Made by a program: the position numbers and the translations under genes. Below are positions 19,335 to 51,710 of a DNA stretch of 64,000 nt, in pieces; within the stretch, counting starts at the first letter, position 1; each line of letters starts with the position of its first letter. The notes under the pieces were generated by a model. The model was not told the origin of the DNA and did not search any database. It saw nothing but the letters and a program-made list of their open reading frames with translations. The stretch comes from Alphaproteobacteria bacterium (lineage in GTDB: Bacteria; Pseudomonadota; Alphaproteobacteria; Caulobacterales; Caulobacteraceae), in the NCBI GenBank assembly GCA_018826515.1, contig JAHKAM010000034.1:1-64000 (forward strand), given 5' to 3'.

Positions 19335-20006
19335 ATGCGCATTCTGGTGGTCGAGGACGACGCTGAAGCCGCGACCGCGATGGTCCGTGGACTGACCGAA
19401 GCCGGTCACGAGCCGACCCACGCCGTCGATGGCGCCTTCGGCCTGCTGGAGGCGCAGAAGGGCGGCTATGACGTCTATGTCGTCGACCGCATGATGCCCC
19501 GCCTCGACGGCATCGGCATGGTCGAGACCCTGCGCAAGGACGGCGACCAGACGCCGGTCCTGTTCCTGTCCGCCCTCGGCGAGGTCGAGGATCGCGTCAC
19601 CGGGCTGAACGCCGGCGCCGACGACTATCTGGTCAAGCCCTACGCCTTCTCCGAACTGATCGCCCGGGTCGAGGCCCTGTCGCGCCGCCGCGAGTCCGGC
19701 AGCGTCGCCACCATGCTCAAGGTCGGCGAGCTTGAGATGAACCTGATCGCCCGCACCGTCCATCGCGCCGGCAAGGAGATCGACCTGCAGCCGCGCGAGT
19801 TCCAGCTGCTGGAATTCCTGATGCGCCACGCCGGCCAGTCGGTGACCCGCACCATGCTGCTGGAGAAGGTCTGGGAATACCATTTCGACCCCCAGACCAA
19901 TGTCATCGACGTTCACATCAGCCGCCTGCGCGCCAAGATCGACAAGGGCTTCGACCACGCCATGCTGCAGACGGTGCGCGGGGCGGGGTATCGGCTGGAG
20001 CCGTAG
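19335..20006 (+). CDS. OmpR-type response regulator
   Basis: A 223-residue regulator with receiver acidic pair E7-D8-D9, phospho-acceptor D51 in YVVDRMMP, the switch residues in LFLSALGEVEDR and LVKPYAFSEL, and a C-terminal winged helix ending TVRGAGYRLEP. ATG 19335 follows GAGGG at 19322-19326; an upstream in-frame TTG at 19320 is less likely. Its cognate kinase starts at 20471, but a DUF559 repeat element of about 450 bp lies between them. Confidence 0.94.
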   Translation: MRILVVEDDAEAATAMVRGLTEAGHEPTHAVDGAFGLLEAQKGGYDVYVVDRMMPRLDGIGMVETLRKDGDQTPVLFLSALGEVEDRVTGLNAGADDYLVKPYAFSELIARVEALSRRRESGSVATMLKVGELEMNLIARTVHRAGKEIDLQPREFQLLEFLMRHAGQSVTRTMLLEKVWEYHFDPQTNVIDVHISRLRAKIDKGFDHAMLQTVRGAGYRLEP

Positions 20007-20012
20007 AGCACA

Positions 20013-20078
20013 AACGTTCTCCCTCCCCCTCCGGGGGAGGGTGGTCGCGTAGCGACCGGGTGGGGAGGGCTCGGCGAC
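20013..20078. repeat. Left inverted repeat of the DUF559 element
   Basis: Hairpin CCCTCCCCC-TCC-GGGGGAGGG at 20021-20041, then T, then hairpin GGTCGC-GTA-GCGACC at 20043-20057, then the G-rich tail GGGTGGGGAGGG to 20069. The segment AACGTTCTCCC just outside (20013-20023) also flanks the solo hairpin at 32271-32299, so the repeat extends outward. A nearly identical copy, inverted, lies at 20413-20467. Confidence 0.9.
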
Positions 20079-20474
20079 ATGGGCGCGACAGCCAGGGCGA
20101 GAAGTCTCCGGAAGAGGATGACTCCCGCAGAGGCGCGTCTTTGGGTTCATTTGCGCGAGCTTCGAAGCGAGGGACTTCACTTCCGTCGTCAACACCCGGA
20201 GCGAGGCTATATTCTGGACTTCGTGTGCCTGGGTCGAGGATTGATTGTGGAGGTTGACGGGACTTCGCACCTTGATCCGGATCGCGCCCGGAAGGACAGA
20301 GTTCGGGATGCGGTGCTCGGCCGCGAAGGGTTCGTGACTATGCGAGTCTCCAACGGGGACATTAGGGAGAGGGTGGAGGAAGTCATTCGAGACGTGCGGA
20401 TGCGTTGCCGAACCCTCCCCACCCGGTCGTCGCTGCGCGCCGACCACCCTCCCCCGGCGGGGGAGGGAGAATGA
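20079..20474 (+). CDS. DUF559 endonuclease-like protein (VSR/PD-(D/E)XK fold)
   Basis: A 131-residue protein of the DUF559 family (PF04480), related in fold to the VSR mismatch endonuclease. The N-terminal motif MTPAEARLWVHLRELRSEGL (residues 14-33) and FRRQHPERGYILDFVC are typical. The likely catalytic acids are D47 (ILDFV), E58 and D60 (VEVDG), all present. The gene lies wholly between two inverted copies of one repeat, and residues from about 112 are encoded by the right copy. Its stop overlaps the start of the kinase gene. No methyltransferase or DNA repair gene is adjacent, so a restriction or VSR role is unsupported. A role in spread of the flanking repeat is inferred. Confidence 0.88.
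   Translation: MGATARARSLRKRMTPAEARLWVHLRELRSEGLHFRRQHPERGYILDFVCLGRGLIVEVDGTSHLDPDRARKDRVRDAVLGREGFVTMRVSNGDIRERVEEVIRDVRMRCRTLPTRSSLRADHPPPAGEGE
20413..20467. repeat. Right inverted repeat of the DUF559 element
   Basis: The reverse complement of this stretch reproduces the left repeat: hairpin CCCTCCCCC-GCC-GGGGGAGGG (20447-20467 on the plus strand), T, imperfect hairpin GGTCG...CGACC (20425-20445) and GGGTGGGGAGGG. It encodes the end of the DUF559 protein and supplies the purine-rich GGGAGGGAGA just ahead of the kinase ATG 20471. Confidence 0.9.
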
Positions 20475-21877
20475 CCCTGCCTTCGATATTCCGCCGCACG
20501 CCCTTTCGGCTGACGCTGCTGTTCCTCGCCCTGTTCGCGGCGGCGGCCAGCGCCATCCTGGCCTGGGTCTATTTCGCCTCGGCCGCCGAGGCCCGAACCC
20601 GGGCCGAGCGCGAGGTGCGCGGCGAGATGGAGGTGCTGAGGGGCATCTATCAGGCGCGGGGTCTGGATGCCCTCAACCGGGCCGTCATCGATCGCACCTC
20701 GCGGGACGGCGCCTTCCTCTATCGGCTGGAGCCGACCGATGGCGGCTGGTCTGCCGGCAATCTGACCATTCTCCCGCTCGAGACCCTGGAGGAAGACCAG
20801 GAATGGACCACCTTCCCCTTCACCGAAACTGACGCCGAGGGCCGGGTGCGCCGACCCGAGGTGCGGGGCGTACAGACCCGGCTGGCAGGCGGGGGAATGC
20901 TCTTCGTCGGCCAGTCCCTGAGCGACACAGAGGCCTATCTGGCCCGCCTGACCCAGGCCCTTTGGACGGCCATGGGCATTGTGCTCCTGCTAGGCCTCGC
21001 GGGCGGGGTGCTGGTCAGCCGCAACCTCGAACGCGCCATGGGTCGGCTGAACAAGGTGGTCACGGCGGTGCAGGAGGGCGATCTCAAGGCCCGCGCCGTG
21101 GTCCGCAACTCCGGCGACGAACTGGACGAACTGGGCGCCGGCCTGAACACCATGCTGGATCGGCTTGAGGGATCGATGGCCTCGATCCGCCACGCCGGCG
21201 ACGCCATCGCCCACGATCTGCGCTCGCCGCTGACCCGGATGCGGGCCAAGCTGGAGGTCGCCCTGATGGACGCCGAGGCGGGCAAGATCGACGGCGTCGA
21301 CGCCGTCCAGCTGGCCCTCGACGAGGCCGACAACCTGCTCAAAACCTTCAACACCGTCCTGGCCATCGCCCGGCTTCAGGCCGCGGCCGGCCGCACGCCC
21401 GACCCGAAGGTGTTCGACGCCGCCGACCTCGCCGCCGACATGGCCGAACTCTACGAGCCCGCCTCGGAGGACAAGGGACTGGAATTCTCCGCCGAGATCG
21501 AACGCGGCCTGATGGTCGAGGGCAACCAGCCCTTCCTCGCCCAGGCCCTGGCCAACATCATCGACAACGCCATCAAATACACGCCCACCGGCGGCGCCGT
21601 GATGCTGCGCGCGCGGCGGCGGTCCTCGGGCGAGATCGAATATTCGGTCACCGACACTGGCCCCGGCGTGCCCGAGGCGGACCGCGAACGGGTCATCGAA
21701 CGCTTTGTGCGTCTGGACAACAGCCGCACCGAGGCCGGCTCGGGCCTCGGCCTGTCGCTGGTCGGGGCGGTGATGGAGGCTCATGGCGGGCGCATCCTTC
21801 TGGATGAGGGTCCCGGTGAATACGGCGGCTTCGGTCCCGGCCTGCGGGTGGCGCTGGTCCTGCCGGCGGCGGAATGA
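20471..21877 (+). CDS. Sensor histidine kinase (HAMP, HisKA, HATPase)
   Basis: A 468-residue kinase. Membrane segments lie near residues 15-37 and 156-178 and flank a periplasmic region of about 120 residues. HAMP follows (residues about 180-235). The His box is DAIAHDLRSPLTRMR, the N-box NIIDNAIKYTP and the G2 box GSGLGLSLVGAVMEAHGG. ATG 20471 is preceded by GGGAGGGAGA, which belongs to the right repeat of the DUF559 element. The partner is the response regulator ending at 20006. Its stop overlaps the glnE start (ATGA). Confidence 0.94.
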   Translation: MTLPSIFRRTPFRLTLLFLALFAAAASAILAWVYFASAAEARTRAEREVRGEMEVLRGIYQARGLDALNRAVIDRTSRDGAFLYRLEPTDGGWSAGNLTILPLETLEEDQEWTTFPFTETDAEGRVRRPEVRGVQTRLAGGGMLFVGQSLSDTEAYLARLTQALWTAMGIVLLLGLAGGVLVSRNLERAMGRLNKVVTAVQEGDLKARAVVRNSGDELDELGAGLNTMLDRLEGSMASIRHAGDAIAHDLRSPLTRMRAKLEVALMDAEAGKIDGVDAVQLALDEADNLLKTFNTVLAIARLQAAAGRTPDPKVFDAADLAADMAELYEPASEDKGLEFSAEIERGLMVEGNQPFLAQALANIIDNAIKYTPTGGAVMLRARRRSSGEIEYSVTDTGPGVPEADRERVIERFVRLDNSRTEAGSGLGLSLVGAVMEAHGGRILLDEGPGEYGGFGPGLRVALVLPAAE

Positions 21878-32267: not shown

Positions 32268-32299
32268 TCTCCCTCCCCCGGAGGGGGAGGGAGAACGTT
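32268..32299. repeat. Solo hairpin of the DUF559-linked repeat family
   Basis: CCCTCCCCC (32271-32279) pairs with GGGGGAGGG (32283-32291) and is followed by AGAACGTT, matching the outer edge of the element at 20013-20041. It lies between the convergent ends of amaB and the YcaQ-type gene and may double as a bidirectional terminator. Confidence 0.75.
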
Positions 32300-51535: not shown

Positions 51536-51559
51536 GGGAATCTCCACTAAGGGCGCTCT

Positions 51560-51697
51560 CCCTCCCCCTCGGGGGAGGGTGGTCGCGTAGCGACCGGGCA
51601 GGGAGGGCTGGGCGACGCGAGCGCGTGCCTGTCTCGCCGAAGCGCCCCCACCCTGTCGTCGCTGACGCGCCGACATCCCTCCCCCGGCGGGGGAGGG
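51560..51697. repeat. Compact inverted-repeat element related to the DUF559 element, no gene inside
   Basis: The left end (51560-51607) reads hairpin CCCTCCCCC-TC-GGGGGAGGG, T, hairpin GGTCGCGTAGCGACC, GGGCAGGGAGGG, almost identical to 20021-20069. The right end (to 51697) is the inverted copy ending CCCCCGGCGGGGGAGGG. The first inner bases CTGGGCGAC match CTCGGCGAC ahead of the DUF559 start. The middle is only about 45 bp, so this looks like an internally deleted form. Confidence 0.88.
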
Positions 51698-51710
51698 AGA
51701 CGGGTGGTTG

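Follow-up and report, generated by a model that had tools for sequence, protein, structure and literature searches.

DUF559 nuclease genes between inverted palindromic repeats: a putative REP/REPIN system of Caulobacteraceae with a Vsr-fold partner

The locus considered here raises the question of what role a nuclease gene plays when it lies between a response regulator and its histidine kinase and is enclosed by two inverted copies of a palindromic repeat. It was found in a 64,000-nucleotide stretch of Caulobacteraceae DNA (assembly GCA_018826515.1, contig JAHKAM010000034.1, positions 1 to 64,000; hereafter the window), and the gene codes for a protein with a DUF559 domain. Repetitive extragenic palindromes (REPs) that flank their enzyme in inverted pairs, and the hairpin-forming REP doublets termed REPINs, are described for the REP-associated tyrosine transposases, or RAYTs (parts of PMC2817692 and PMC3116915). 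We propose, with a probability of about 0.65, that the REP-duf559-REP segment is a discrete mobile unit, belonging to a REP/REPIN system that has a Vsr-fold nuclease as its partner instead of an HUH transposase. Most DUF559 genes examined in Caulobacteraceae sit between inverted palindromic REPs, and enzyme clade and REP type go together.

Inverted repeats around DUF559 genes

The whole unit comprises approximately 455 bp (20017-20471). It and its two neighbours are arranged as follows.

19335..20006, + strand: response regulator gene, upstream neighbour, whose stop is the left edge of the insertion site (from the list of open reading frames)
20017..20078, + strand: left REP, with outer hairpin 20021-20041, second hairpin at about 20042-20057 and a G-rich tail into the gene; inverted arms
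20079..20474, + strand: DUF559 gene, 131 amino acids, predicted Vsr/EDxHD-fold nuclease (PF04480, E 4.2e-28)
20404..20471, - strand: right REP, inverted copy, with hairpin 20447-20467; inverted arms
20471..21877, + strand: histidine kinase gene, downstream neighbour and right edge of the insertion site, within open reading frame 20405-21877

The arms of the unit pair over 31 nt (20017-20047 with 20441-20471, 97% complementary) and over 26 nt (20053-20078 with 20404-20429, 92%). Each REP consists of a hairpin, CCCTCCCCC-NNN-GGGGGAGGG, followed by a GGTCG..CGACC hairpin and a tail, GGGTGGGGAGGG, directed toward the gene. An earlier, sequence-only reading of this DNA had described a 131-codon DUF559 gene between inverted repeat copies that separates a response regulator from its kinase, and both statements agree with the present data. 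The two-hairpin-plus-tail architecture that it gave for the repeat also stands, at a size of about 62-68 bp instead of roughly 50 bp. The C-terminus of the protein is repeat-coded, as had been stated; since the right REP starts at codon 109, this applies to residues 109-131, about 23 codons and not 20.

In the window genome (G000), DUF559 is represented by four full genes and a remnant. The four intact genes are all enclosed by inverted repeats, in four variants of three hairpin types, the window copy and the copy on contig C1 being two variants of one type. With the remnant, there are five enclosed loci, five variants and four hairpin types (read by eye), and an outer hairpin, a second hairpin and a G-rich tail facing the gene are common to all five. 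REPIN/RAYT repeats have a GTAG-type tag beside the palindrome; the tails of the repeats read here are GGGTGGGG, GGATGAGGGG or alike. The remnant, of a fifth DUF559 gene (L007, G000:C51:37306-37446), still lies between inverted copies of yet another hairpin type.

The survey was extended to 61 genomes of the window's own genus (taken as Brevundimonas). These yielded 219 DUF559 matches (summed, fragments counted), from which an incomplete set of 165 loci was drawn, namely most of the best 150 matches together with the best 30 loci of a second, longer match list. Flank and clustering tests were carried out with custom scripts at fixed scores and thresholds, with windows of shifted geometry as controls. 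Seven duplicates and four truncated loci (4/165) were left out of the main genus test. Of the 161 loci scored, 116 have matching inverted flanks versus 3/619 shifted controls, and several of the misses carry one REP or two different REPs. A REP-like hairpin is present on at least one side at 141/156 genus loci and on both sides at 97/156; for single windows 700-800 bp away the figure is 22/609. Inverted flanks extend to other genera of the family (30/44), to the class (22/42) and, more weakly, to other classes (6/16), with controls at 0/170, 0/166 and 1/62. In a set of named genomes (80 loci, from which 9 truncated ones were left out) the count is 62/71 versus 0/396 controls, or 52/60 without 11 loci (of the 80) that overlap earlier sets. 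The shifted controls of these flank tests, which include a further 0/230, amount to 0-1.6%. When flank partners are swapped inside one genome, the threshold is reached in 5/68 cases (genus) and 11/66 (family). A preliminary flank test, scored more loosely and with six shifted windows per locus, had given, at a score of at least 25, inverted repeats at 26/31 loci, direct repeats at 10/31 and controls at 8/31 (maximum of windows); it was superseded by the stricter scoring. The flanking of DUF559 homologues by inverted palindromic repeats, put forward by the sequence-only reading as a check, is thereby confirmed for most genus and named loci. DUF559 itself was detected in 108/299 sampled genomes of the phylum.

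The clades of the enzyme differ in their hairpins, as shown by a map of all 165 genus loci in which a hairpin was scored in at least one flank. The window's clade (cl1) has CCCTCCCC-n-GGGGAGGG at 22/22 loci, 16 of them in both flanks; elsewhere this hairpin is found at 1/143. Clade-linked hairpin types are also seen in cl3 (24/25), cl5 (19/19), cl2 (33/44) and cl6 (9/15), and 28/38 loci of cl4 have the type of cl5, with a related type at 8 more. Because hairpin type differs between DUF559 clades, there is no single repeat family: the association with inverted repeats that had been postulated holds, and its assignment to one family does not. Across the 81 loci, out of 161 domains, that were kept for this test (inverted score of at least 24, repeat of at most 100 nt), the more alike two enzymes are, the more alike are their repeats (Spearman 0.40; at most 0.12 in 999 permutations). 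With repeats shuffled only inside genomes of Caulobacteraceae (65 loci; 12 genomes have two or more, together 29 loci), the observed value of 0.488 was reached in 0/999 shuffles, by a narrow margin (best shuffle 0.483).

Two peculiar arrangements were seen among the loci. Five clade-3 genes (L246, L247, L250, L271, L285) lie between two unlike inverted REPs, of CCCTCTCCC type on the left and CCTTCTCCC type on the right, and these heterotypic pairs resemble a common heterodimer family with 3-nt loops. On contig C6 of G051 (L305), two DUF559 genes that are 92% identical lie about 2.8 kb apart in opposite orientation.

Dispersed hairpins, unit copies and empty sites

Pattern matching finds the window hairpin 40 times in its own genome. 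At one mismatch or fewer, 29 hairpin copies are found there versus 0 for the reversed control pattern; together with the flank controls of 0-1.6%, this excludes chance as the source of the window arrangement. The window itself contains two further elements outside the unit.

51557..51700, no strand assigned: REPIN, a gene-less inverted REP pair of the same kind, with hairpins at 51560 and 51677, of which the pattern at up to one mismatch gave the second alone
32271..32291, no strand assigned: orphan outer hairpin with no visible tail (pattern match)

In each of two relatives, 24 of the 33 copies listed (out of totals of 45 and 46) are paired at a distance of 114-129 bp. Twenty pairs, picked because they are paired, were fetched and proved to be inverted doublets of 134-150 bp, the consensus of which folds into one long hairpin. 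Dispersed inverted doublets with a short spacer that form a single hairpin are REPINs. The idea that the REPIN centres are internal deletions of the gene unit is not claimed here, the signal being weak (best-match means of 11.5-11.8 for the cognate clade and 8.8-10.0 for other clades).

Copy number of the window hairpin follows its cognate enzyme clade. The 20 genomes with this clade have 6-60 copies (median 29), versus 0-46 (median 3) in the 41 genomes without it (one-sided Mann-Whitney U test, p 3.5e-6); clade presence as scored here may miss weak or broken DUF559 copies, the genus locus set being incomplete. With other enzyme clades the window hairpin has no clear copy-number relation (p 0.26 and 0.34). 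With the copy threshold set at 10, 13, 15 and 20, the difference within independent sister pairs lies in the expected direction in 3.7, 2.9, 2.9 and 1.7 of 5 pairs and in the opposite direction in 0, 0, 0 and 0.1. The patterns CCTTCTCCC and CCCTCTCCC were dropped from the copy-number analysis, as a second family of hairpins, whose loops are 3 nt long, confounds them and is also present in genomes without detected DUF559. The prediction that repeat number tracks DUF559 is thus supported for the cognate clade, and it fails as a strict rule of presence and absence (see the exceptions below).

Counting those in which one exact hairpin pattern was matched on both sides, Caulobacter and its close kin have 33 units at 27 distinct sites; their lengths span 511-628 bp, with 27 units at 524-530 bp. 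Copies within a genome are up to 97% identical. At 0.91-0.97 they are equally or more alike than copies at the same site in different species (0.86-0.94), so that the units either have multiplied since or have been kept alike by gene conversion. For three of eight pairs compared, the limits of homology coincide with the outer REP ends to within about 4 bp; in one, homology breaks off early. No clear target-site duplication was seen among the 33 units (mean 1.15 nt, versus 0.74 for shuffled sequence).

At the regulator-kinase junction of the window, the response regulator has a DNA match in 61/61 genus genomes, which is close (at least 79%) except in G005 and G023. The junction was read in 30 genomes: 13 are filled, 14 are precisely empty, and 3 contain another element, also with inverted repeats. 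The empty sites have the kinase start 8-9 bp past the regulator stop in 11 cases, 6 bp past it in 1 and at -1 bp (overlap) in 2. Left-REP-like repeats are present in all 13 filled sites read in other genomes, and three further genomes are filled by coordinates, giving 16 filled loci. The filled state requires 8 changes on the regulator tree, at least 6 of them on well-supported branches, and enzyme identity at this site follows regulator identity (rho 0.39, 3/999). The empty sites in sister species that had been named as a further check are thus present at 14/30 junctions, and the absence of REPs from them indicates that the unit comes or goes as a whole. Similar copies at different sites, together with filled and empty sites, are footprints from which mobility of the unit can be inferred; replacement by recombination is a possible route to the filled and empty pattern. 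In the three genomes with a different element (L223, L234 and L235, in G015, G036 and G059), the junction contains an element of about 130 bp whose inverted ends are of GAGTGGCGAG type, which suggests that small repeat elements of more than one kind are drawn to this site or tolerated there.

The nuclease and the explanations of the unit

The predicted fold of the window protein is that of Vsr and I-Bth0305I: its AlphaFold2 model (pLDDT 87.9) matches the structures 3hrl, I-Bth0305I and Vsr in the Protein Data Bank. Together with its conserved E, D, ExD and H residues, this places it with the Vsr/EDxHD enzymes of the PD-(D/E)XK clan, to which the sequence-only reading had assigned it. Over 267 DUF559 domains, E18, D47, E58 and D60 are conserved at 100% (rounded) and H64 at 99%; the intact D47, E58 and D60 reported earlier are among them. 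The median ratio of nonsynonymous to synonymous substitution (dN/dS) is 0.16 for the 44 of 78 pairs of same-site orthologues that were used, from the window's regulator-kinase site. As judged from these comparisons, DUF559 is under purifying selection and its active site is invariant. The window protein belongs to PF04480 and lacks the Y1/HUH domain (PF01797) with the catalytic tyrosine that marks a RAYT. A scan for PF01797 found it in 1/61 genus genomes, the window genome not among them; a RAYT was accordingly rejected as the mover.

The most likely course of events is that the Vsr-fold nuclease would recognise its own REP hairpins, either single-stranded at a replication fork or as cruciforms, and would nick at or near the hairpin base. 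Nicking might release or copy the unit in cis and the REPINs in trans, and host repair and ligation would seal donor and target. As such a nuclease would form no covalent tyrosine-DNA link, rejoining must in that case come from the host. Flanks, copy number and empty sites support the earlier suggestion that DUF559 plays the role of a RAYT; that it catalyses movement, and so does the job of a RAYT in the chemical sense, is what we infer from them. The wider claim stands at about even odds: a nuclease-only class of transposable element in which a Vsr/EDxHD endonuclease, without HUH, DDE or recombinase chemistry, moves its own hairpin-ended unit of about 0.5 kb in cis and REPINs in trans. Each enzyme clade would be adapted to its own palindromes. 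The class would be widespread among Caulobacterales and would occur in other Pseudomonadota too, with repair-like DUF559 proteins such as VsrA of C. crescentus as resident or domesticated members.

Several observations weigh against a mobile unit with its own nuclease. PD-(D/E)XK enzymes are not known to carry out strand transfer alone. Some of the Caulobacter unit sites are common to related species, so that gene conversion could explain the likeness within genomes, and in 4/8 compared pairs homology runs 8-24 bp past the REP ends on one or both sides. All 16 filled regulator-kinase loci are in one orientation, which suggests one old insertion followed by repeated clean loss instead of frequent jumps there. 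At 45/161 genus loci the inverted flanks are below threshold, and the direct orientation reaches it at 26/161 (in smaller sets, at 15/59 genus, 13/44 family and 13/42 class loci); in other classes direct flanks (9/16) are commoner than inverted ones (6/16). The clade-hairpin map is not one to one because cl4 and cl5 have one hairpin type in common. Nine of the 41 genomes without the cognate clade hold 15-46 copies of the window hairpin; one of these, G047, has a disrupted cl1-like fragment (residues 2-64 at 62% identity, with two stops). No DUF559 was detected in G041, G013 and G025, yet they carry 25, 17 and 6 hairpins of another type; G013 is 85% and G025 70% complete, and G024 is the only DUF559-negative genome with none of three hairpin types. 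Copy-number tests for the other hairpins are weak (P6 with cl3, p 0.02; P2 with cl4/5, p 0.009, or 0.06 at a completeness of at least 90%), and the number of P6 hairpins increases with cl1 as well (p 0.016). The sister-pair test has too few pairs, its median p being 0.125 at best.

The hairpin populations in genomes without the cognate clade (9/41) or without detected DUF559 (G041, G013, G025) would be expected if another host or transposon enzyme moved REP doublets and DUF559 were cargo caught between two REPs. This seems unlikely, for it leaves unexplained the match between clade and REP type, even within genomes (0/999, at the narrow margin given above), the invariant active site under purifying selection, and the recurrence of DUF559 as cargo in several families; moreover, a RAYT was detected in only one of the 61 genomes, in the scan confined to PF01797. 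It is more doubtful that DUF559 is a homing-type selfish nuclease which cuts REPINs or another target lacking the gene and is copied in by recombination, with the repeats as target and not as vehicle. The EDxHD homing endonuclease I-Bth0305I is intron-encoded and specific for one locus, unlike the DUF559 unit with its own palindromic ends and many sites. Fourteen of the 30 junctions are gene-less and without a REP (regulator stop and kinase start -1 to 9 bp apart), which disfavours a REPIN as homing target, the junction itself as target aside. Very similar units also occur at different sites of one genome, and REPIN spacers are only slightly like the gene edges.

DUF559 could, finally, be a host repair gene, a Vsr-like mismatch nuclease in the manner of VsrA of Caulobacter crescentus, with hairpins that are incidental regulatory or terminator elements. 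This is very improbable in view of the several divergent DUF559 genes per genome whose hairpin type follows the clade, of the multiplication and repeated gain or loss of units, and of the matching dispersed repeat, for which repair has no need. A repair role and a mobility role are not exclusive.

Relation to known systems

The DUF559 system is like REPIN/RAYT in that an enzyme gene lies between two inverted REPs, that inverted doublets fold into one hairpin, and that enzyme and REP co-diverge; co-evolution of RAYTs and REPs has been argued by similar reasoning (in parts of PMC2817692 and PMC3116915). It differs in the enzyme, which has the Vsr/EDxHD fold with E-D-ExD-H residues and not Y1 (HUH). 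DUF559 genes are usually several per genome, with near-alike multicopy units in Caulobacter; a RAYT, by contrast, is described as a single-copy gene that cannot move itself (in the portion of PMC3116915 available). RAYT genes are always flanked by REPs according to the available part of PMC2817692; here, 45/161 DUF559 loci miss the threshold. Small size, hairpin ends, the lack of a clear target duplication and gene-less derivatives are features in common with IS200/IS605 insertion sequences and miniature inverted-repeat transposable elements (MITEs). In contrast to IS200/IS605, a Y1 transposase is found in only 1/61 genomes, and the unit ends are inverted repeats, which IS200/IS605 elements lack (PMC2817692, in part).

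Alphaproteobacteria, C. crescentus included, also have CGTC-tagged REPs, short dimerising palindromes said to be without a dedicated transposase, whose mover is left open in the text available of PMC3733652. Window-type repeats are likewise short palindromes of alphaproteobacteria but lack the CGTC motif, and an identity of the two was rejected, as CGTCATYCC occurs in the flanks of only 6/267 DUF559 loci. VsrA of C. crescentus, a DUF559 protein, is placed in the PD-(D/E)XK superfamily (PMC12907096, in part). The Vsr very-short-patch repair endonucleases, VsrA among them, have the same fold; nicking of T:G mismatches in a methylase motif is the mark of this class. VsrA, compared here by its description, is a putative mismatch endonuclease unlinked to its methylase, and the available sections of PMC12907096 mention neither flanking repeats nor mobility. 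A link between the window system and VsrA is plausible. Segments that carried a transposase together with a DUF559 gene were hotspots of recombination when Legionella was evolved experimentally (PMC12308824, in part). PMC9927313 was discarded as a source, since the part available concerns DUF5590.

A link between DUF559 and REPs was not found in the open-licence literature searched, as far as its text was available (PMC12907096, PMC9403480 and PMC12308824 included); within that scope, a REP/REPIN arrangement with a nuclease of unrelated fold appears to be new.

REPs are common in bacteria, and RAYTs are, to our knowledge, the only dedicated REP partners known. If the proposed reading is correct, a second, unrelated enzyme family is tied to its own REPs, and REPIN-like populations have evolved more than once. 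It would also assign a function to DUF559, a domain of unknown function, and would set the DNA damage that VsrA causes in Caulobacter in a new light.

The right REP touches the downstream gene. No known RNA family was found at the locus in Rfam up to E 1. The DUF559 stop and the kinase start overlap as ATGA, and the outer end of the REP, GGGGGAGGGAGA, stands immediately 5' of the kinase ATG (20471), so that the right REP may supply the ribosome site of the kinase; its hairpin may also control kinase translation. Over 20455-20474, GGAGGGAGA as the outer end of this REP abuts that ATG. For two further loci of the window genome (L005 and L006, G000), the match to the window protein is confined to its repeat-coded C-terminus, the same REP being read there into other open frames.
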